IMG/VR virus record: IMGVR_UViG_3300006924_000154
Span: 1 to 25,029 of that record
DNA length: 25,029 nt
From: a virus
Direction: 5' to 3' (one strand)
Of the stretch, positions 1,726 through 22,986 are shown in pieces. The notes below the pieces were generated by a model. That model saw nothing but the letters and a program-made list of their open reading frames with translations. It was not told the origin of the DNA and did no database searches. The first letter of the stretch is position 1. Every line of letters starts with the position of its first letter. A program made the position numbers and the translations under genes.

Positions 1726-2242
1726 TGCTTTCAATTGTGTTTCCGTTAAAATTTAACTCAATTAATTTTTTTATAGTTTGATATTCTTTATGTTGAATAT
1801 CTCTTAGATTTTTCGGTCTATATTTATCATCTTCTACAATTGGTATTGGACTCATTAAACATATGTGATCGTAGCAAAACTCCTGAACAAACTCAAAGTG
1901 ATTGTGCAAAGATTCACTCAATCTGTAAAAGTTTTTTTGATTCTTCTTTGTTAATTCCTCTATGTTGATGTAGGTGTTTAGATAGTAGAATGAATCAAAA
2001 ATCGATCTATCTATTAAAACATCTGTGTTTTTTACACAATCTATTTCTTGTAAGATTTTGGCCATTATGATTTTCTCTTGAAAAGAGAAGTATTCATTTG
2101 GCTTAGATCTTATTTCATCAATGTCAATATCATACTTTCTTACCTCTTCACCTAAAATTTTAAAATATGGGTATTTATTTTTTAAGAGATTGATCATAGT
2201 GGTCTTCCCACTGTGGCATGCACCACTAAAAGCTATTCTCAT
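1694..2242 (-). CDS. P-loop (AAA-type) kinase, putative deoxynucleotide kinase
   Basis: 182 aa, ATG at 2240-2242. Walker A is GACHSGKT (residues 7-14), and 'VLIDRSIFD' (75-83) corresponds to the DRS-like segment of nucleoside and nucleotide kinases. 'DDKYRPKNLRDIQ' near the C-terminus looks like an arginine-containing lid. This fits the AAA_28/NadR-like group of small P-loop kinases common in phages. The gene is wedged between the carbamoyltransferase (17-bp overlap) and the predicted dCMP hydroxymethylase (32-bp overlap). My inference is that it phosphorylates the modified deoxycytidine monophosphate towards the triphosphate. A kinase with another substrate cannot be excluded. Confidence 0.7.
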   Translation of the reverse strand: MRIAFSGACHSGKTTMINLLKNKYPYFKILGEEVRKYDIDIDEIRSKPNEYFSFQEKIIMAKILQEIDCVKNTDVLIDRSIFDSFYYLNTYINIEELTKKNQKNFYRLSESLHNHFEFVQEFCYDHICLMSPIPIVEDDKYRPKNLRDIQHKEYQTIKKLIELNFNGNTIESNDLSELERYF

Positions 2243-3824
2243 ACAAAAGGATGTTTTCTATTTCTGAATCTTCTCTTACTTGGTAGTTGTAGTTTAACTT
2301 TACATCTCCATGTGTAAAAACTATTGGCTGGCCATGAACATTAAATGAGGTGTTGACTAAACATTTCACTCCTATTTCATTGCACTTTTCTAAGATCTTG
2401 TAGATAAGTGAACTCTCATCATCAATTACTTGAGGACGCCCAGAATATCTATCTTCAAGTGGATATTGGTGCATTACACCATCATATTCATCATGACTAA
2501 CAGATTGATTGTAGTCATGAGTTATGATCATGAATTTATTACTACCAACAACCTTTTTTACGTCTTCTTTTTTAAAGAAAAAATCAACATTCTTACGTAG
2601 CATAACAGGCGCACATGGCATGTATGTGTCTCTGCCGTTTATCTTGTTTACATGATCAACTATTTTTTTCCTTGGTAGAAAGATAGAAGACGTGTTGCAT
2701 AAAGCTCTTGGGCCAAATTCCATATCACCTTGAACAATGTTGACTATTCCACCATTAGTTATTGATTCAATGATCTGTGACATACTATATTGAGATCTTT
2801 TTTTCTCTTCCACTTTCCTCTTACCAAACCTTAAAGATCCAATTTCAAGTCCTTTAACAGCACCTAAAGCCGCGCCCTGATCACCACAAACTGGCATTAC
2901 ACATATTGTTTTTAAGGCATTGGCTAAGACATTGTTTAACTTCACGTTGTAGAAAACTCCACCTGCACAACAAACATTCTTATTTTCAAGTCCTATGAAC
3001 TTGACCATTTTCATGACAGTTTGTTCAAGTAATGATTGGACAAAATAGGCAACAATGATTTTTGTGTCACTATCTTCTTTAAAAACGCTAGTCACGTCAT
3101 TTAGCATTTGATAAACATCTTTCCTAGCCTCATCAAGTAGTTCAAAAGGAATCAGGGATTCTGAAACAATTGGGATGGTTGAATTACACAAACCATCTAC
3201 GTAAATTTTTACGTATTTAGATATTAAAGGATCTAGTACTTGCTTATCCTCTATTGATATGTGTGATTCATATCCAAGTAGTTTGTACTCATCTTGATTT
3301 TCTTTCATTCCAAGGAAACCAATAGAATATTGATACAACAAGCCAAGAGAAAACTTGTATGTGTAAGAACTCCAAATTTCACTCTCAATATTTAAACCAT
3401 CATAACTGAAAACAGAAAATGACTTACCAAAGTTTCCAAATCCATCAATAACAAGAGAAAAACCGTTTGCCTCTCCATTGTGTTCATAGTTGAAATTAAC
3501 GGCTGACTGAGCATGTAATTTATGATGATCAATATGATCTTCAACAGTGCAATTATAGTTCTGAATCAGATCATTCAGAGACTTTTGATCAACGTACTTG
3601 TTGTCAATATCCCTATTAGTAAACCAATCACTTATCGATATCTTACATCCTGATATGTCGATGTGTTTCTTGATTTCATTTATGGCATCAATGGGCCAGT
3701 TTGAACTGCTTTTAATTTTATCAAAACGCTCTTGCTCATAGCCAATTATTTCCTTTGTTGTCTCGTTGTAGTAAACTGCAGACGCATTGTGTCCTACAGT
3801 TATAAGTAAATTCTTATTGCTCAT
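2226..3824 (-). CDS. NodU/TobZ/CmcH-family carbamoyltransferase, predicted 5-hydroxymethylcytosine carbamoyltransferase
   Basis: 532 aa with the complete two-domain layout of the family. The N-terminal Kae1/YrdC-fold ASKHA domain has the metal-binding HHKLHA (residues 100-105), 'LVIDGFGNFGKS' (124-134), 'QDEYKLLGYE' (177-186), 'GGVFYNVKLNN' (288-298) and 'CGDQGAALGA' (313-322). The C-terminal domain has 'GDMEFGPRAL' (366-375), 'YMPCAPVMLR' (401-410) and 'LVNTSFNVHGQP' (489-500). Family members use carbamoyl phosphate and ATP to carbamoylate a hydroxyl group. A phage-type member is known from metagenomic work as 5-hydroxymethylcytosine carbamoyltransferase, making 5-carbamoyloxymethylcytosine. 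The neighbouring predicted dCMP hydroxymethylase supplies the matching hydroxyl. ATG at 3822-3824, overlapping the MazG-like gene by 11 bp. The substrate is inferred from context. Confidence 0.85.
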   Translation of the reverse strand: MSNKNLLITVGHNASAVYYNETTKEIIGYEQERFDKIKSSSNWPIDAINEIKKHIDISGCKISISDWFTNRDIDNKYVDQKSLNDLIQNYNCTVEDHIDHHKLHAQSAVNFNYEHNGEANGFSLVIDGFGNFGKSFSVFSYDGLNIESEIWSSYTYKFSLGLLYQYSIGFLGMKENQDEYKLLGYESHISIEDKQVLDPLISKYVKIYVDGLCNSTIPIVSESLIPFELLDEARKDVYQMLNDVTSVFKEDSDTKIIVAYFVQSLLEQTVMKMVKFIGLENKNVCCAGGVFYNVKLNNVLANALKTICVMPVCGDQGAALGAVKGLEIGSLRFGKRKVEEKKRSQYSMSQIIESITNGGIVNIVQGDMEFGPRALCNTSSIFLPRKKIVDHVNKINGRDTYMPCAPVMLRKNVDFFFKKEDVKKVVGSNKFMIITHDYNQSVSHDEYDGVMHQYPLEDRYSGRPQVIDDESSLIYKILEKCNEIGVKCLVNTSFNVHGQPIVFTHGDVKLNYNYQVREDSEIENILLYENSF

Positions 3825-4935: not shown

Positions 4936-5143
4936 CTTTTAAAAGTATTGTACCCCCGTTCTTACGAACTAAAGCCTGACCGACTACAAACACAGATTCT
5001 TGCATTCCGTTTATTTCTACCATGATAGGTTCTTTAGTCTTGATTGCTTCTCCTATTACCCTTCGAAAGTAAACAAGATTCCCAGTGTTTTTTTTCTCGT
5101 GGTAATCCTGGATAGTAGTCCACTCTTCAACTTTCACTGACAT
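4928..5143 (-). CDS. Hypothetical early protein, 71 aa
   Basis: ATG at 5141-5143, coupled to the preceding gene by a TAATG stop/start overlap, and it overlaps the annealing-protein gene by 8 bp. Mixed alpha/beta composition with a beta-rich second half (EPIMVEINGMQESVFVVGQA). No family recognised. The tight packing between a DNA-binding protein and a recombination protein suggests a role in DNA metabolism, but nothing in the sequence shows it. Confidence 0.65.
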   Translation of the reverse strand: MSVKVEEWTTIQDYHEKKNTGNLVYFRRVIGEAIKTKEPIMVEINGMQESVFVVGQALVRKNGGTILLKDV

Positions 5144-5649
5144 TATCTATATCTATTTGTGTACAATTTTGATTTTATTTTAAATTTCTCTCTCAACTCT
5201 TCAAGATCTTCTGAAATTAAATCAAAGGTTGAAAGAACTTCTCGACATAGCTTTTCAACTTGTTCAACTTCGCTATTTTCTTGCTCTAAGTTTACAGGTT
5301 CAGGATTTGAAAACTTATCAAGTTCCTTGACGATGTCAAAAATATCTTGATTTGGAATCTTATTGTTTGGACCAACTGGCTGAATCAATTCAAGTATTCT
5401 CTTTTTTGAGTTCAAAACAGTTGCGTGATCTCTACCTCCTGAAACCTTTCCAATTTGATTGAGTGTGAAAAGAGTGTTTTTCGATGCGATGTAGTGATAC
5501 AAATGTCGAGCAAGAACAAAGTCTCCATCTCTTCTTTTACTGATCACGTTTTCTTTTGATTCACCCATGATCATACAGACATCATTTAAAATAGATTCAA
5601 GCCTTGAAAAAGCGTATTTATCACGGAATTTTTTTCTTGTTTCGTTCAT
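5143..5649 (-). CDS. DnaA domain IV-like DNA-binding protein, no AAA+ domain
   Basis: 168 aa, ATG at 5647-5649. Residues 12-90 match the C-terminal DNA-binding domain of DnaA: 'CMIMGESKENVISKRRDGDFVLARHL' type helices (25-50), then the signature 'IGKVSGGRDHATVLNSKKRI' (66-85), close to the bacterial 'GRDHTTVL' motif that contacts the DnaA box. The ATPase domain (III) and domains I-II are absent. The rest (120-165) is an acidic, Glu/Leu-rich probable coiled coil. First gene after an early-type promoter. It could recruit or compete for host DnaA boxes or mark the phage origin. Domain identity is firm, role inferred. Confidence 0.8.
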   Translation of the reverse strand: MNETRKKFRDKYAFSRLESILNDVCMIMGESKENVISKRRDGDFVLARHLYHYIASKNTLFTLNQIGKVSGGRDHATVLNSKKRILELIQPVGPNNKIPNQDIFDIVKELDKFSNPEPVNLEQENSEVEQVEKLCREVLSTFDLISEDLEELREKFKIKSKLYTNRYR

Positions 5650-5779: not shown

Positions 5780-6193
5780 TCAGCGTGACAAATATAAGAA
5801 AAGAATACCTACAGCGATCACAGAGCTGCTACCTATTGAAGAAAATTTGTAGAGCTTTTTCTTTCTTGTTTCCTTTTTAGCGTGGTTTTCAACGATTTGA
5901 ATTTGATTTCTAAGAGCAATCTTGATTTCCTCGTTCTGTTTTAGTCCAGTTTTGCACTCATTAAGCTGAAGCTTTTGCGTAAAAATAATTCCATCTTTTG
6001 CTGAAAGTTTTTCATCTCTCAATTTTACAAGAGAGTCAAGTTCTGAATTGCGCTCAAACAAGTACCAGATTTTCTTCGCGTCTGAGCTTGTGAGAGAATC
6101 AGTCTGGGATTTCAAATGAGTCGAGCAAACTCCGAGCAACATCAAGAGCAGAGTCAGCTTCAGCTTCGCGGATTGCATTGTATTTCTTTTCAT
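5780..6193 (-). CDS. Putative outer-membrane spanin-like lysis protein, overlapping the i-spanin-like gene
   Basis: 137 aa from the ATG at 6191-6193 (alternative ATG at 6178). A basic start and hydrophobic run 'LKLTLLLMLLGVC' give a signal peptide with a Cys at the lipobox position, although 'LGVC' is not a canonical lipobox. A charged, probably coiled-coil periplasmic region follows, and the last 20 residues (SSIGSSSVIAVGILFLYLSR) form a possible membrane helix. The N-terminal third lies inside the end of the upstream spanin-like gene in another frame (95-bp overlap), like lambda Rz/Rz1. Signal plus C-terminal TM also resembles a u-spanin. Family not recognised; the role is inferred from layout. 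Confidence 0.55.
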   Translation of the reverse strand: MKRNTMQSAKLKLTLLLMLLGVCSTHLKSQTDSLTSSDAKKIWYLFERNSELDSLVKLRDEKLSAKDGIIFTQKLQLNECKTGLKQNEEIKIALRNQIQIVENHAKKETRKKKLYKFSSIGSSSVIAVGILFLYLSR

Positions 6194-6437
6194 AGTAGAC
6201 TTTAGTTTCAACGATAACTGTATCAATTTTAACCTCAACAGAGAGGAGTGAATCTTTTGTGTTTTCAAGGTCTTGAATCCTTTCAAAAGTGTCTTGTAGT
6301 TTTTTCTCACCTACTTTTGATTCAATTCTTGCGTCTTCTAGCTTATCTCGCAGCCCGTAATCGGGTGAAAAGATTATTCCGAGTAATACTATAACTACAA
6401 TAAAAAGAAACGCTGAGAGGAGCTTAAAATAGCTCAC
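6099..6437 (-). CDS. Putative inner-membrane spanin (Rz-like)
   Basis: 112 aa with a GTG start (6435-6437) that overlaps the stop of the holin-like gene (GTGA). N-terminal membrane anchor at residues about 4-24 (LLSAFLFIVVIVLLGIIF) followed by a long charged coiled coil (30-95), the layout of Rz-type i-spanins, which link the inner membrane to an outer-membrane partner in the last step of lysis. The next gene begins inside this one in a different frame. No sequence-level match to a named spanin is claimed. Confidence 0.6.
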   Translation of the reverse strand: MSYFKLLSAFLFIVVIVLLGIIFSPDYGLRDKLEDARIESKVGEKKLQDTFERIQDLENTKDSLLSVEVKIDTVIVETKVYYEKKYNAIREAEADSALDVARSLLDSFEIPD

Positions 6438-6790
6438 TTTTTTGATACTTTACTTGAGACGAAGTTTTTAATTGAATCAAAACCGCTTTCAATTATCCAA
6501 CCAATAAGAGCTGAAGACATTAATCCAAGAAACAAAGCCCAGATTGGATGCCATGAATCGCCAATAATGAACAACCATTCCCATTCTTTTGAGATTCCTA
6601 TTTTAGCAAAGAACTTAAAGATGTCACCACCCCAAAAACCAAAGACAAAAGCAGATCCTAATCCGAAAAGAATATCGTCAAAACGATCTTTGATGTATGG
6701 TGTTTCAATATATCTATCTTGATTTTTATTGTAGAAATAAAGCTCTCTAAGGATTGCCCCTAGCAAAGCGGCTGCAATAAACTCGTTCAT
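6434..6790 (-). CDS. Holin-like membrane protein
   Basis: 118 aa, ATG at 6788-6790, overlapping the endolysin stop (ATGA). Hydrophobic segments at about residues 3-18, 41-60 and 82-103 are separated by charged loops, and the C-terminus is short and basic (SSKVSKK). Size, three membrane segments and position directly after the endolysin fit a class I holin, which opens the inner membrane for the endolysin. No family is recognised from sequence, and an antiholin or another membrane protein remains possible. Confidence 0.6.
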   Translation of the reverse strand: MNEFIAAALLGAILRELYFYNKNQDRYIETPYIKDRFDDILFGLGSAFVFGFWGGDIFKFFAKIGISKEWEWLFIIGDSWHPIWALFLGLMSSALIGWIIESGFDSIKNFVSSKVSKK

Positions 6791-7278
6791 GGTCTCACAA
6801 TTTTTATGTCATCAAGACCAGTGTTGCGAACGTCTGAGTGTAGCCAAGTTTTTGCAATAGCAGGATCTTCCAATGTAGTCAATCCTTTCTGCATAAATAG
6901 ATCTTTGTTTTCATTTATAACCTTTTGCACTTCGATGTAATCAGCTTCGTATCTCGTTCCGTTATTGATAATGATGTCACAATCGAAAGCTCTTCCATAT
7001 CTGTGTTGACTCTCTGAGTTTGGGCTTCTACTGAATTGACCATCATTGTATTGCTGTGGCTCTCTGTAACCTCTACCTATGTAGCTTCCCCCTGTGTGCC
7101 AGTTGTTGATCACAATAAAAACATCATCTGCTTGATAGTGCATCGTAAAAAACTCCTTGTAGAATTGAGCTAATGAGAATAATTTTGGATCTACAAACCA
7201 CATCGATTTATTACCCCACTTAGACCAAGTGTTTTTTGAGACAAACTCTTGAAGACAAAAATTTTCAGCAACTTTCAT
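6787..7278 (-). CDS. Endolysin, M15-type (VanY-like) zinc peptidase
   Basis: 163 aa, ATG at 7276-7278. The M15 zinc motifs are present: 'QHRYGRAFD' (His92, Asp99), the general-base Glu137 in 'TTLEDPA', and 'TWLHSDVR' (His147). These peptidases cut L-Ala-D-Glu or D-Ala-type bonds in peptidoglycan cross-links. There is no signal peptide, so release depends on the adjacent holin. ATGA overlaps with both neighbours show translational coupling in the lysis cassette. Confidence 0.85.
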   Translation of the reverse strand: MKVAENFCLQEFVSKNTWSKWGNKSMWFVDPKLFSLAQFYKEFFTMHYQADDVFIVINNWHTGGSYIGRGYREPQQYNDGQFSRSPNSESQHRYGRAFDCDIIINNGTRYEADYIEVQKVINENKDLFMQKGLTTLEDPAIAKTWLHSDVRNTGLDDIKIVRP

Positions 7279-15978: not shown

Positions 15979-16413
15979 TTATTTCAATGTCTCTTTAATT
16001 ACAATGTCTCGAATGATTGGGATAATGAAATTAACAAGTTCTGTCAAGCTGACATCTGTTAAGCCGATAATTTTCCCATACTCAAGCAAATCTTTGTCTG
16101 GCTTCTGAGTTTGGGCCTCTATTGTCACAGAATCTCCATCGATGGAACTGATCTTGAAGGATTCATAAAAGGCTCCAGTGTCATAAAGTGTGTAAGGAGT
16201 TCCAGCTTGCTTAACACCTTCAGACATTATCTCAGTGAGCTTTGAATAAACCGGAAGAGAAGAACCATCAGAAGCGATTCCAAGTCTAAGCTGTCCTTCT
16301 GTGTTAAATTCAATTATTTGATTTTGTGCATCGCCTCTGGTAAAAGTTAAGAAGAAGACTCTTCTGTCTGTTATCTTCTGTAGATTCTTTGCAACTTCAA
16401 TTAATCTGTTCAT
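15979..16413 (-). CDS. Putative tail completion / morphogenesis protein
   Basis: 144 aa, ATG at 16411-16413, first gene of the tail block. 'LYDTGAFYESFKI' (about 78-90), then 'LLEYGKIIGLT', match the pattern 'DTGxLxxS...YG...GL' of phage virion-morphogenesis/HK97 gp10-like tail completion proteins that sit at the head-tail or tube end. A TAnnTTTG box is 4 nt before the ATG. The similarity is in short motifs, so the family call is moderate. Confidence 0.5.
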   Translation of the reverse strand: MNRLIEVAKNLQKITDRRVFFLTFTRGDAQNQIIEFNTEGQLRLGIASDGSSLPVYSKLTEIMSEGVKQAGTPYTLYDTGAFYESFKISSIDGDSVTIEAQTQKPDKDLLEYGKIIGLTDVSLTELVNFIIPIIRDIVIKETLK

Positions 16414-16417
16414 ACTG

Positions 16418-16425
16418 CAAAAATA
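16418..16425 (-). promoter_or_regulatory. TAnnTTTG -7-like box at the head of the tail operon
   Basis: Minus-strand TATTTTTG, then CAGT, then the ATG of the tail completion gene. First gene of a block that runs uninterrupted to the terminator at 5711. No clear -33 TTG. Confidence 0.45.
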
Positions 16426-16432
16426 AATACTT

Positions 16433-16440
16433 TAGATTTC
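16433..16440 (+). promoter_or_regulatory. Possible -7 box for the plus-strand phosphoesterase
   Basis: TAGATTTC differs from TAnnTTTG in the last base and lies 26 nt before the ATG at 16467, so a divergent promoter pair in this 53-nt gap is likely, but the element is weak. Confidence 0.25.
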
Positions 16441-16466
16441 GCGATGAGAAAATAAAATTTAATAGA

Positions 16467-17177
16467 ATGAGTAGACCAAGATTAAACAAAGGACTTAATT
16501 GGCTTGTGGGAAGTCTAAAAGATGAGTCTAACAGGGTCTTAGTTATAGGTGACCTTCACGAGCCTTTCTGTCTTGATGGATATCTAGATTTCTGCATAGA
16601 GCAAAAGGAGAAGTTTAACTGCAACAGAATTGTATTTATAGGCGATGTGATCGACAACCACTTTAGCAGCTACCACGAAACAGATGCGGACGGGCTTGGG
16701 GGTGCAGATGAACTAGACTTCGCAATTAAAAAAATAGCAAGGTGGCGAGATGCTTTCCCGGTTGCTACCGTTATTATTGGAAACCATGACAGGTTAATTA
16801 TGCGCAAAGCTCAAACCTCATCAGTTCCTACAAAATGGATCAGAGAATACAAAGATGTATTAGAAGTTCCTCAATTTGATTTTGTAGACAGACTTGTTAT
16901 TGACGATGTGCAATACATTCATGGCGAGGCGGGAACAGCTAGAACCAAATGCAAGGCAGACATGATGTCCACAGTTCAAGGACACCTACACACTCAGGCT
17001 TATACTGAATGGGTTGTCGGCCAGAAGTTTAAGGTCTTCGGAACTCAAGTAGGGTGTGGAATAGATCACAACTCATATGCTATGGCGTACGCTAAAAGAG
17101 GGAAGAAGCCCGCTATTGGCTGCGTTGTTGTTCTTAATCAGGGCCGAACACCCATTAACTTACTTATGAACTTATGA
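16467..17177 (+). CDS. Calcineurin-like metallophosphoesterase
   Basis: 236 aa from the ATG at 16467 (MSRPRLNKG...). All five metal motifs of the superfamily are present: GDLH (Asp29, His31), 'GDVIDNH' (Asp60), 'GNHD' (105-108), 'IHGEAG' (His152) and 'GHLH' (172-175). Two-metal phosphodiesterase or phosphatase; the substrate is not evident. One of two plus-strand genes, coupled to the next by an ATGA overlap, inserted among minus-strand tail genes. Phage members are often of unknown role. DNA-end, RNA or signal-nucleotide cleavage (anti-defence) are possibilities and none is shown here. Confidence 0.85.
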   Translation: MSRPRLNKGLNWLVGSLKDESNRVLVIGDLHEPFCLDGYLDFCIEQKEKFNCNRIVFIGDVIDNHFSSYHETDADGLGGADELDFAIKKIARWRDAFPVATVIIGNHDRLIMRKAQTSSVPTKWIREYKDVLEVPQFDFVDRLVIDDVQYIHGEAGTARTKCKADMMSTVQGHLHTQAYTEWVVGQKFKVFGTQVGCGIDHNSYAMAYAKRGKKPAIGCVVVLNQGRTPINLLMNL

Positions 17178-18524: not shown

Positions 18525-19454
18525 TTAAGGAATTACGATTGTCTCGCTAACAAGGTAGGTATCGTCATATCCTAAAGTGGCTGCATCAATTCCTAAAGCA
18601 AATGTTTCTGTTGAAGAAGCTGGAGTTGTGATTGTGAAGTCGTAAACTCCATCAGAAGACTCTACAACTGTGAAAGGCTCTGCACCTGGAGTAGGCGTAA
18701 CTTCATTCAAATCGAAATCAGCAGCATTTAATCCACTCACCTTTGCACGAGTCTTCGCAGATCCGTAGTCGGTTGTAATTGTCATTGTAAATCCTGTAGT
18801 CGCTTCGTTTGAAACAGCTCCGTACAAGTCAACCAAACCAGCAATGTCAAGCAAATCAACACCTGAGAACTCAGAAGCAAGAACCATACCGAGTTGATCA
18901 TCGGTAAAATCTTGTCTCCATTCAAAGCTTAGCATAACTTTTGGAACAGTGGTGTCAGTTGTCTTGATGTACTTAGGACTCCAAGTAGCTGAGTTAATTG
19001 GAAGAGGAGACATAAAGAGAGGATCTGTGACAGTGTCTCCAATCAAGTTTCCTTGCTTGTCAACAACGTACACTCCAAAAGTCGTGCAACCCCAAGAAAC
19101 GATTTTGCGAAGAAAATCAGGAGTCTGGTTGATAATCATACCAGTAAAAGTTCCAGTTGCATCTTGAACCTTCGCTGAAGATCCGTCTTCAAATGTCTCA
19201 ACGACATCATCTCCACGAACGTCCTCGACATTCAAAAGATTTCCTATTGGATACCAACGCTGATAAGGATCTGCGTTGTTGATAGCTGCGTCGACATAAG
19301 CTTTATTAAACGTATCAGCTAAAGTTATTCTATTCAATGTGCCATCTGCTTGAGCTAATGGAACAAGGATTAATTTTCGTGCCGCATCTTGCATCGGCAT
19401 ACAAGATGGCCGTCCTGTGTTCAAGAAGGTCAAATCGCAAAGACAAGTTTTCAT
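18525..19454 (-). CDS. Major tail (tube) protein, putative
   Basis: 309 aa, ATG at 19452-19454. Soluble beta-rich protein without a signal peptide. Residues 1-210 look like a tube domain, and the last about 95 residues (ATTGFTMTITTDYGSAKTRAK... to the end) look like an Ig-like extension typical of tail tube proteins. Position between head-connector genes and the tape measure supports the call. It has its own TAnnTTTG box and the leader TCTAAAAACAATCTCA, consistent with high expression. Assigned by position and architecture rather than a specific motif. Confidence 0.6.
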   Translation of the reverse strand: MKTCLCDLTFLNTGRPSCMPMQDAARKLILVPLAQADGTLNRITLADTFNKAYVDAAINNADPYQRWYPIGNLLNVEDVRGDDVVETFEDGSSAKVQDATGTFTGMIINQTPDFLRKIVSWGCTTFGVYVVDKQGNLIGDTVTDPLFMSPLPINSATWSPKYIKTTDTTVPKVMLSFEWRQDFTDDQLGMVLASEFSGVDLLDIAGLVDLYGAVSNEATTGFTMTITTDYGSAKTRAKVSGLNAADFDLNEVTPTPGAEPFTVVESSDGVYDFTITTPASSTETFALGIDAATLGYDDTYLVSETIVIP

Positions 19455-19551: not shown

Positions 19552-19755
19552 CTACTCATCGTTTGTTGGTATTTCAATTTGTGTTGTTTCTCTACCATTG
19601 AGCCACTCGTTGAGTATCGGTTTAAACTTTATGTATTTCTTTCCTTCAAACTCTATCGGCTCACCCTGCCAAGTGTCTTGGTCAATAGTTCCGAAAAGGT
19701 GTAAGTCAATAGCGTCTATATCTTCTTGGAAGGATGATGTTTCAAATACTTGCAT
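19552..19755 (-). CDS. Small acidic virion-region protein, 67 aa
   Basis: ATG at 19753-19755 overlaps the stop of the 905-aa gene (TAATG). Acidic, beta/alpha mixed (DLHLFGTIDQDTWQGEPIEF). No family recognised. Position between a connector-region protein and the tail tube allows a tail terminator or stopper accessory role, which the sequence does not prove. Confidence 0.6.
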   Translation of the reverse strand: MQVFETSSFQEDIDAIDLHLFGTIDQDTWQGEPIEFEGKKYIKFKPILNEWLNGRETTQIEIPTNDE

Positions 19756-22472
19756 TAGACAATAGTTGTTTGTGTGAAATTGTACTTAGTACCATACGCT
19801 GCACCTTGAGTATTTAGGTCAGCTACTGAACTATCCTCATTTACAACCTTAAATGCTGCGATAGTACCTTGAGAACGGACAATACCTATAAATGTACCAA
19901 GACATCTAAACGCAACACCCCCTTGTGCTGAGTAACTAGATTTGTTTTCCGTATCTAACGCAACGCCATTTCGGTATAATGTAATAGTACCGCTTGAGCC
20001 GTTTGTTACTCTAAAGCAATACACCGCAGGTGTGTCTAGTGCGCTATCGTTTAAAAGTGGATCAGAGCCGCTTGAGTAAACGTCATTTTGATAGCGAACA
20101 TAACCTAAGTCGTCAAACCAACCAATCGACCTACTATCGCCACTCTTAGCTGACCCACCTAAAAGGTCAACTTTTTGGCCTGATGCTGCATTCCCTACAA
20201 ACCAAAAGTTGAAGCCTGTTTCGTAAAATACTCTCATTGGGTAGGTAAAGAATAGATAATCTGAGTTAAGGCTGAAGGTAGGTTGGTTATTGTAGGCAGC
20301 ATCTGAAGCCGTGTAGCTTGGCTGCAAAGACCCCGATGTTTGATAGAGGTCGTTTCCTATTGGCCCTTGATCTTGAATAGCACTAACAGAGCCGCCTGAC
20401 TCTGTAAGGTTATCGCCTGAGATGTCTACTTCTGTAGCAGATGTCGCGCTTGCGCTTATGTTCACAGCAGCAGGATAAGACCCTACTACCGAACCATTCA
20501 CAGTCAATTGAATATCTGGCAACACTAACGTGCCACCACTTGCAACAGTGTTTGTGTAACTGTTGTCTGAGTTTTCGACATTTGCATCAGGCGCTAGAAC
20601 CGTGTCAGTGACTGTGGCTTTTACTGAGTTACTTGATAAAACTGAGCCAAGAGTATTAACCACATTGACAGTTGAATCAGCGACATTGTAAACTCCTGAA
20701 CCCTCTGCTGTTACGGTTGCGCTTGCAATCAAAGTACCGTCACTCTGGTTAATGTTAATGGTTGCATCTGCAATGATAATATCCTCGCTCACATTGCTAG
20801 GAATTAACTCAGACTTCAGAACTGCGTTTAAAGTGTTTTTAATCACAGCAGTAGCATCAGGAGCAGTAATAGTTGATGCATCAGTAGCTAAGACGTTTGT
20901 AGTAGATAATGTAGACCCGTCCGTATTGTCTAAAGTAATAACGCTGTCGGGGATTCTAAAATGCGCACCTTGTTTTGAACCTATTAATGTGCTTCCACTT
21001 GATTGCCTTACCTGAATGTTTAAGGTTGCGCCCGAAGCTACATTGTCGAAAAATACACTATTTACATTGACAGTGCCATCTGCCGATAAACTACAAACGA
21101 CATTTACAACAGAAGCCTGAGTAAACGTACTCCCATCGCTGTCTGTGACTGTAATGTCAGGAAGCGTAAGCGTTCCTCCACTTGCCACAGTATTGGTGTA
21201 GCTACTGTCGCTATTTTCTACCGTAGCATCTGCTGAAGGCGTGCAAAGTACGTTTTGGACACTAGGTACAGAAGACGTTGAACCATCCGAATCTGTAACT
21301 GTAATATCAGGCAAGACTAAAGTACCTCCACTTGCAACAGTATTTGTATAACTACTGTCGGAATTTTCTACCGTAGCATCTGCTGCAGGTGAACAAACTA
21401 CATCTTTAACACTAGGAACGCTTGAAATAGAGCCATCGCTATCTGTCACATTAATGTCTGGCAGTACTAAAGTACCTCCACTTGCTACTGTGTTTGAATA
21501 ACTAGTGTCGCTATTTTCTACTGTTGCGTCTGATGCTGGTGAACAAACTACGTCTTGAACACTAGGTACAGAAGAAGTCGAACCATCTGAATCTGTAACT
21601 GTAATATCAGGCAGAACCAAAGTAGCTCCACTTGCTACTGTATTAGTATAGCTTGAATCTGAGTTCTCAACAAAGCCACTACCGCCACCACCGCTAACAG
21701 TGTAAGAAGAGCCTGCGTCAACCATTGTAATCAGATTGCCGTTACTGTCTAGGATAAACACTTGAGGACATACACGAGTTGATGCAGTATCAGAGCAATC
21801 AAAATCAACCATGATAGGAAGATTAATAGTCACCTCAATTCCTGAAAGCGTTCTCTGAAAGATTCCTTGAGCTTCATTGCCTCCTAAATCGCCACCTCCG
21901 ATAGTAAGCTTTGCATGGTTTGTCGTTTCAATAACACCAAAATCACCAGTCCTTTTATTCGCTTCTAGTTCTACAAGAAATAAATTAACAAGAGTCAGGA
22001 CAGGATTTACAATCTCTTCATACATCTGTTCTGTGTCTCTCGACCAGTCATCTGTATTCGCAAAGAAAAGCCTGACTTGACCTTCGCTTTCAATTTTACT
22101 GTCCAAATCTGAAGGCCGTGTCCGTTGCTGGTTTTCAAGCATCCAGATCAAAGGCATGATGTCCAAGTCTTGAGGATCTGAAAGTTCTGTTAAAACAGCT
22201 TGATATTTGCCATGTTTGAAAGTAGGATTCCTTAGAGCAAAAATACCTGTAGTCGGTTGGACTGCTCCTTCAAGAATTAAGTATTCGTCTTGAACAAAGC
22301 TTTCAACAACATATTGAACGCTACCAATTTCAAGCTCAGAGAGCGTGTTTAAATATTGAGTATTAGAACAATATACTTTCCAGTTTGAGCCAGAAGCTTC
22401 AACTGAATCAATTTTCAAGGTCACTGACATTGAAGCAATAACCTCTCGAAGCAGTGTTGATACTTGTAGCAT
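19755..22472 (-). CDS. Large virion protein with tandem repeats and LamG-like C-terminus, 905 aa
   Basis: ATG at 22470-22472, 1 nt after the stop of the connector-like gene; an ATG at residue 15 (MSVTLKID) is an alternative. Domains: residues 15-230 are a beta-rich structural domain near the head-tail junction; 268-467 hold four tandem 50-residue repeats built on 'VENSDSSYTNTVASG', 'LPDITVTDSDGS' and a conserved 'VVCSP' Cys; 470-640 have degenerate beta repeats; a fifth diverged copy begins at about 632; 690-905 look like a concanavalin/LamG-type jelly roll ('FSLNSDYLFFTYPM', 'TITLYRNGVALD'). It is probably a neck or tail appendage that binds cell-surface glycans. The N-terminal part may join the virion. 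Confidence 0.7.
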   Translation of the reverse strand: MLQVSTLLREVIASMSVTLKIDSVEASGSNWKVYCSNTQYLNTLSELEIGSVQYVVESFVQDEYLILEGAVQPTTGIFALRNPTFKHGKYQAVLTELSDPQDLDIMPLIWMLENQQRTRPSDLDSKIESEGQVRLFFANTDDWSRDTEQMYEEIVNPVLTLVNLFLVELEANKRTGDFGVIETTNHAKLTIGGGDLGGNEAQGIFQRTLSGIEVTINLPIMVDFDCSDTASTRVCPQVFILDSNGNLITMVDAGSSYTVSGGGGSGFVENSDSSYTNTVASGATLVLPDITVTDSDGSTSSVPSVQDVVCSPASDATVENSDTSYSNTVASGGTLVLPDINVTDSDGSISSVPSVKDVVCSPAADATVENSDSSYTNTVASGGTLVLPDITVTDSDGSTSSVPSVQNVLCTPSADATVENSDSSYTNTVASGGTLTLPDITVTDSDGSTFTQASVVNVVCSLSADGTVNVNSVFFDNVASGATLNIQVRQSSGSTLIGSKQGAHFRIPDSVITLDNTDGSTLSTTNVLATDASTITAPDATAVIKNTLNAVLKSELIPSNVSEDIIIADATININQSDGTLIASATVTAEGSGVYNVADSTVNVVNTLGSVLSSNSVKATVTDTVLAPDANVENSDNSYTNTVASGGTLVLPDIQLTVNGSVVGSYPAAVNISASATSATEVDISGDNLTESGGSVSAIQDQGPIGNDLYQTSGSLQPSYTASDAAYNNQPTFSLNSDYLFFTYPMRVFYETGFNFWFVGNAASGQKVDLLGGSAKSGDSRSIGWFDDLGYVRYQNDVYSSGSDPLLNDSALDTPAVYCFRVTNGSSGTITLYRNGVALDTENKSSYSAQGGVAFRCLGTFIGIVRSQGTIAAFKVVNEDSSVADLNTQGAAYGTKYNFTQTTIV
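21072..21671 (-). repeat. Four tandem 150-bp repeats inside the 905-aa virion gene
   Basis: Copies at 21522-21671, 21372-21521, 21222-21371 and 21072-21221, each exactly 150 bp (50 codons). The protein is highly conserved while synonymous sites differ, so the copies are old enough to drift but kept under selection. A fifth, partial copy starts at 20579 and runs leftward. Confidence 0.9.
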
Positions 22473-22473
22473 A

Positions 22474-22986
22474 CTAAATTGGACTTTGATATTCGAACTC
22501 TATTCCTTTAAAATCAGGATAAGTTACAGAGTCAGACAAAACAAAAGCTTGCAGCAAGCATATCGCTTCAACTCCTCTATTGTATAAAACGATTTCAAGT
22601 TTGTTAATTCCTTGAGCCGAAACTGCTGATTGATTTACTCCGTGACTACCTGAAGAGAAATTTCTTACTGGCTGGCCCGTTGTTACCTCTAAGTAGAAAA
22701 GATACATCAAAGCTCTTTTAATCCCCTCACAATACCAATTACGGTTATTGTTGTCAAAGTCAAAAGGAGTGAAAATATCAAGCCACTTAGCTGAAGCAGG
22801 TACAAGCGGATCACCAGCAAGATCATCAATTAAGTTCTGACCAAGGGTAGACCCAAAAATTTGTTTCAAATAGTGAAGCTCTTTCTCTGGAGATAGTATT
22901 GAAGCGATGGCAGCTTTTGTGTTTTGATCTTGTGCGAGTTTTAGATCTCCATTTAAGAAATCTGTTGTTGATAGTATCTGAGCCAT
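22474..22986 (-). CDS. Putative head-tail connector protein
   Basis: 170 aa, ATG at 22984-22986. Mostly helical with Trp/Tyr-rich patches ('WLDIFTPFDFDNNNRNWYCEGI'). Size, composition and position (capsid, small protein, this gene, virion protein, tail tube) fit the head-completion/adaptor proteins that sit under the portal, as in related Bacteroidota phages. First gene after an internal terminator, with a TAATTTTG box 4 nt before its ATG. No named motif. Confidence 0.5.
   Translation of the reverse strand: MAQILSTTDFLNGDLKLAQDQNTKAAIASILSPEKELHYLKQIFGSTLGQNLIDDLAGDPLVPASAKWLDIFTPFDFDNNNRNWYCEGIKRALMYLFYLEVTTGQPVRNFSSGSHGVNQSAVSAQGINKLEIVLYNRGVEAICLLQAFVLSDSVTYPDFKGIEFEYQSPI

Follow-up and report, generated by a model that had tools for sequence, protein, structure and literature searches.

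A predicted tail terminator extended by a repeat-built shaft and a lectin-like tip in a probable Flavobacteriia phage

What is a long protein with tandem repeats and a fibre-like layout doing in a slot between the head genes and the putative tail tube gene of a phage, rather than at the tail tip? The question is raised by a 905-aa gene in the window, by which we mean the whole 25,029-nucleotide stretch that was analysed (positions 1 to 25,029 of IMG/VR record IMGVR_UViG_3300006924_000154). Our preferred reading, to which we give a probability of roughly 70%, is that the gene encodes a tail terminator with a receptor-binding appendage on its C-terminus, a lectin-tipped shaft projecting from the neck. 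The parts of the gene and its two most informative neighbours are as follows.

19755..22472, minus strand: whole gene, 905 aa; terminator-like anchor, shaft and lectin-like tip (ORF; full-length relatives in the same slot)
21789..22472, minus strand: anchor, residues 1-228; predicted tail-terminator fold (AlphaFold2 model and VIA-align)
22227..22433, minus strand: beta-barrel insertion in the anchor, ~residues 14-82 (predicted strands)
21672..21788, minus strand: first linker module and Gly-rich hinge (SGGGGSG), residues 229-267 (sequence)
21522..21671, minus strand: repeat unit 1, residues 268-317 (TRF, unit alignment)
21372..21521, minus strand: repeat unit 2, residues 318-367 (TRF, unit alignment)
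21222..21371, minus strand: repeat unit 3, residues 368-417 (TRF, unit alignment)
21072..21221, minus strand: repeat unit 4, residues 418-467 (unit alignment; relatives keep unit 4 adjoining the middle module)
20580..21071, minus strand: middle shaft module, residues 468-631 (DNA identity of 80-93% with relatives whose anchors and tips differ)
20430..20579, minus strand: fifth unit, diverged and without Cys, residues 632-681 (unit alignment)
19758..20423, minus strand: tip, residues 684-905; predicted ConA-like (LamG-type) fold (structural matches, low-confidence model)
22474..22986, minus strand: upstream 170-aa gene, probable head-side connector (function assigned from position)
18525..19454, minus strand: downstream 309-aa gene, putative tail tube (conserved position; the 308-aa gene of phage snork6-1 likewise)

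The repeat array and its copy number

The four in-frame 50-residue repeats and the diverged fifth described by the first-pass annotation are confirmed in the ORF at 22472-19755, the four units (first residues 268, 318, 368 and 418) filling 21671-21072 on the minus strand and the fifth starting at residue 632, after a 164-aa module that reads by eye as degenerate beta-rich modules of ~30 residues each. TRF detects the array at 21142-21650 with a period of 150 and a score of 596, 78% of positions matching and indels being absent. Self-identity is 72.7% at a lag of 150 and does not exceed 38% at any lag other than a multiple of 150, so that the periodicity is not a product of chance. The repeats had also been called exact, which is true of their period but not of their sequence, as the units are pairwise only 61-79% identical in DNA and 72-88% in protein. 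The conserved cysteine ascribed to every unit, which may form disulfides or metal sites, is present at unit position 43 in all four units of the array, and is kept in 83% of the aligned units that extend to that position (n = 78), but is missing from the fifth unit.

To count units among relatives drawn from IMG/VR we considered those ahead of the middle module. There are four in the window and in L002-L004, three in L005, L006 and L008, two in L007, L009, L011, L014, L033 and L034, and one in L037 and L039. The repeat number is thus variable (1-4 among relatives), and a fixed copy number, which had been set beforehand as the refutation, was not seen. Exactly one 150-nt unit, present in L005 and absent from L007, separates these two alleles, which otherwise mismatch at 19 positions over 2391 nt. 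The breakpoint can be placed with equal fit at any point of one 74-nt run, the pattern that unequal recombination should leave. As the gene is 99% identical between these two phages while the 2 kb upstream and the 1.2 kb downstream are 81% and 93% identical, respectively, the comparison suggests a recent exchange of the gene itself. Assembly collapse is an unlikely source of the copy-number differences, since the units within both L005 and L007 differ by 13-39% in DNA.

The anchor and its place between head and tail genes

The AlphaFold2 model of the anchor, built from ten sequences, is of usable confidence only at about residues 1-110, 130-175 and 210-220. Its top match by structural alignment (VIA-align) is lambda gpU (Z 9.4, 117 of 132 residues, 3.0 Å), followed by the Chi neck protein (Z 8.2), the Bxb1 connector (7.9), the R4C stopper-terminator (7.9) and the Mu terminator (7.7), and then by the phiCD508 neck and the pyocin R2 collar, the terminators after lambda gpU spanning Z 7.4-8.2; these matches rest on fold, and a Z below ~8 can reflect a common arrangement. 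Phage tail-terminator, neck or collar entries account for nine of the ten best structural matches and cover residues 1-222, for which we predict the alpha/beta fold of tail terminators such as lambda gpU. The beta-barrel at ~residues 14-82 is inserted after the first helix and resembles small beta-barrels from many unrelated proteins about equally well (tied Z values of 6-7). The anchor model is also matched, over nearly their full length (E 1e-11), by two uncharacterised proteins of viruses, 228 and 246 aa long, which are likely shaft-less relatives. By sequence, no terminator family was recovered for the window protein in Pfam or PHROG and no real sequence match in the PDB, and profiles of both anchor families found among the relatives likewise have no real match in the PDB. 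Tail terminators are poorly conserved in sequence (PMC11784142).

Upstream of the 905-aa gene the order is a protease-like gene, the major capsid protein gene (PHROG major head protein match, E 5e-32), a 62-aa gene and the 170-aa gene, whose position is conserved in relatives, with 38-41% identity in distant ones. Downstream lie a 67-aa gene, the 309-aa putative tail tube gene, the product of which has no family match, and further on the tape measure gene. The 905-aa gene occupies the slot between head-side genes and a tail tube gene assigned by position, and this slot together with the predicted terminator fold supports the neck or upper-tail location suggested earlier. Capsid proteins of Flavobacterium phages are 43-44% identical to that of the window, and its tape measure protein has similar counterparts in Flavobacterium and Cellulophaga phages, suggesting that the host is probably a member of the Flavobacteriia.

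In the cultured Flavobacterium siphophage snork6-1 the equivalent slot holds a bare 168-aa protein, gp059, flanked by a 210-aa gene on one side and by a 60-aa and then a 308-aa gene on the other. Profiles of the two anchor families match gp059 only weakly (E 0.00015 and 0.013, five-protein set); by eye, it can be followed along the window anchor through PLVW and YKEILYP to the closing IELTIEV...C, near which it stops. A tblastn search of cultured phages with the whole protein, the anchor and three relatives gave no relevant match, and a scan of bacterial genomes for the repeats, in hosts or prophages, confirmed none.

Several other features of the window were recorded alongside. A phosphoesterase-like gene (16389-17177, plus strand) lies among the tail genes but reads the other way, and has the same orientation in L002, L005, L007 and L034. 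Two overlapping ORFs in different frames (5780-6437, minus strand), possibly a nested lysis (spanin-like) pair, stand beside a peptidase-like gene (6787-7278), and an ORF at 5143-5649 (minus strand) looks by eye like the DNA-binding end of DnaA, the replication initiator. A gene that by eye looks carbamoyltransferase-like (2226-3824, minus strand) adjoins nucleotide-metabolism genes.

Different tips on a shared shaft

Confidence in the model of the C-terminal part is low (mean pLDDT 40), rising to 57-88 in parts of the tip. In this model the tip is structurally closest to PilC (Z 9.7) and calreticulin (Z 9.5), both ConA-like, from which a ConA-like jelly-roll fold is predicted. The earlier description of this domain as LamG-like is supported to that extent, though the window tip itself has no match in Pfam at E up to 1, Laminin_G_3 included. 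Among distant relatives with the same repeat unit, a Laminin_G_3 tip is found in L056 (7e-11) and Lcl_C tips in L073 (3e-9) and, under the curated cut-off, in L045 and L044. Clostridial toxin binding domains were rejected as relatives of the tip because their matches reflect only the common ConA-like fold.

In its middle module the shaft is 80-97% identical in DNA across phages with little or no DNA similarity in anchor or tip. The anchors of the window, L006, L008 or L011, and L033 have 33-54% protein identity and little or no DNA match, and the cores of the L014 and L034 anchors are unrelated to that of the window. In L014, whose anchor is otherwise different, the next module is similar to the window's first linker. 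DNA similarity of the window to L006, L012 or L014 is mainly limited to the shaft (gene positions ~769-1970). Three types of tip are carried on the shaft among near relatives: the ConA-like type (window, L005, L011), a second (L006, L014, L034) and a third (L008, L033). In L034, an unrelated head side is combined with the shaft, the tip of L006 (97% DNA identity) and the tail module of the window (87-92%). Similar shaft DNA thus joins different anchors and different tips; as read from these genomes, the shaft acts like an adapter, shared horizontally, that links interchangeable anchors to interchangeable tips, and probably helps phages swap the parts that hold onto bacteria.

About 13 of the 60 non-redundant repeat-bearing ORFs belong by their core to the window anchor family and 29 to a second family, the rest being mixed. 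A profile link between the two families is not supported, as the apparent match sits in the shared linker, outside the core, and the terminator-like label of the second family comes solely from L034, which carries it in the same gene slot. The same shaft is also found on other virion-type proteins (L017, L037, L039, L048, L050, L078), and hence it is the anchor, not the shaft alone, that fixes the location of the protein. In L037 and L039 (5947-7476) the shaft and a third-type tip follow an N-terminus of ~20 residues, in small-gene surroundings with no recognisable head genes near, which is a non-terminator use of the shaft. L017 (7605-8705 and 12215-12664) has a bare 150-aa terminator-like gene and carries units on another virion-type protein with a different N-terminus, and two adjoining genes of L050 (5968-7041 and 7508-8665) both contain the repeat unit but have different tips.

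A probable terminator-borne fibre and its alternatives

Computation supports the predicted anchor fold, the gene position, the copy-number change and the mosaicism. On the preferred reading, the N-terminal domain would form a ring capping the tail tube beneath the head, presumably of six copies as in other siphophages; the T5 and 812 terminators are hexameric rings (PMC11784142, PMC12886913). The Gly-rich hinge, the four units, the 164-residue module and the fifth unit would then make up a beta-rich shaft projecting outward from the neck, with the ConA-like domain at its end most likely binding a flavobacterial surface glycan as a secondary adhesin. Such binding would add avidity to that of the main tail-tip receptor, an effect on adsorption that we infer. 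Homologous recombination within the conserved shaft cassette can change the number of units, as the allele pair L005 and L007 shows, and, as the mosaic relatives suggest, could combine various terminators with various tips and leave the terminator intact.

The closest known parallel is the NPS fibre of the lactococcal 936 group, a neck protein of ~500-900 residues with one module shown to bind host cells, to which our candidate is similar in length and predicted location; its constant N-terminus is combined with several exchangeable classes of sugar-binding C-terminus (PMC6669499). In the window family three types of C-terminal tip are exchanged, but the anchors vary too and sugar binding is read from the fold only. 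Moreover, NPS is a separate protein with a BppU-like collar domain at its N-terminus and a predicted coiled-coil shaft; the N-terminal domain of the window protein matches terminators, which alone does not count against a BppU-like domain, and is followed by a presumably beta-rich repeat shaft. In predicted fold and gene position the window protein is like lambda gpU, T5 p142 (PMC11784142) and 812 gp99 (PMC12886913), the last of which also has an extra beta-sandwich domain (PMC12886913), but these terminators are of ~130-280 residues without a long shaft and tip, while the window protein adds 640 residues. The bead-chain neck fibres of cyanophage A-1(L) resemble the predicted fibre in being built of repeated modules with a terminal module of sugar-binding type, yet gp82, gp81 and gp80, each a separate protein, make them up on a pentadecameric ring, and their sugar-binding module failed to bind the host (PMC10966104). 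The tip's best fold match, the PilC minor pilin of Streptococcus sanguinis (7oa8), likewise combines a ConA-like module with a filament protein, although PilC is a bacterial pilus protein with 12% identity to the tip, a likeness of fold only. By analogy, the fibre may work like lactococcal neck-passage fibres but be built on a terminator; we found no description of a terminator-fused lectin fibre in the open literature, coverage of which is incomplete.

The protein might instead be a tail-tip or side tail fibre that happens to be encoded beside the head genes, its N-terminal domain being merely terminator-like and docking elsewhere on the tail. Similar shafts do occur on a protein encoded beside the tape measure gene (L078) and on short N-termini in L037, L039, L048 and L050, and terminator-like alpha/beta folds are simple and the anchor model is confident only in part. 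This reading is nevertheless quite unlikely, given that terminator, neck or collar entries dominate the matches along the whole of residues 1-222, that the 67-aa ORF is the only other terminator candidate between the 170-aa and putative tail tube genes, and that snork6-1 has a bare protein of matching pattern in the slot. Slightly better placed, if still unlikely, is an extension that passively spaces or stabilises the neck (as a collar or whisker) and is no adhesin, with repeats and cysteines stiffening the virion. Disulfide links stabilise the collars of phage Milano (PMC10491603), the proteins decorating the neck of phage 812 seem to strengthen it (PMC12886913), the cysteine is conserved in most units and the non-binding module of A-1(L) provides a precedent; however, the exchange of unrelated tips on a retained shaft is what is expected for binding heads and not for structural parts, and the tips have lectin-type folds.

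The similarity of the shafts could also reflect strong constraint on one protein inherited with its gene, in the absence of any horizontal exchange, and the very low dN of the middle module (0.01-0.08) would fit this. Protein-level constraint does not keep synonymous sites, however, and the middle-module dS is unsaturated at 0.33-0.40 for the distant relatives L006, L011, L014 and L034, no larger than the 0.26-0.47 of the close relatives L005, L007 and L009, while synonymous sites in the anchors and tips of the same distant pairs are saturated or nearly so. In these distant pairs the shaft is moreover the main DNA match, and the more diverged middle modules of L008 (dS 1.05) and L033 (dS 0.71) are older. 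We consider constraint without exchange the least probable of the three alternatives to the terminator-borne adhesin. A stronger form of the exchange model, in which the shaft is a dedicated recombination adapter, is possible but falls somewhat short of even odds: phages with unrelated heads and tails would share a near-identical cassette in the terminator gene, such that a co-infecting pair can trade neck-borne tips and alter fibre length with the terminator unbroken.

Neck appendages with sugar-binding modules are known from dairy phages; what differs here is that the appendage seems to be joined in one protein with the tail terminator, which every long-tailed phage needs, and that the shaft cassette is near-identical in otherwise unrelated phages. 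The model predicts that shaft DNA is a crossover hot spot and that the number of units sets the length of the fibre. If true, it would provide flavobacterial phages with a route, readable from sequence, to exchange their host-binding parts.
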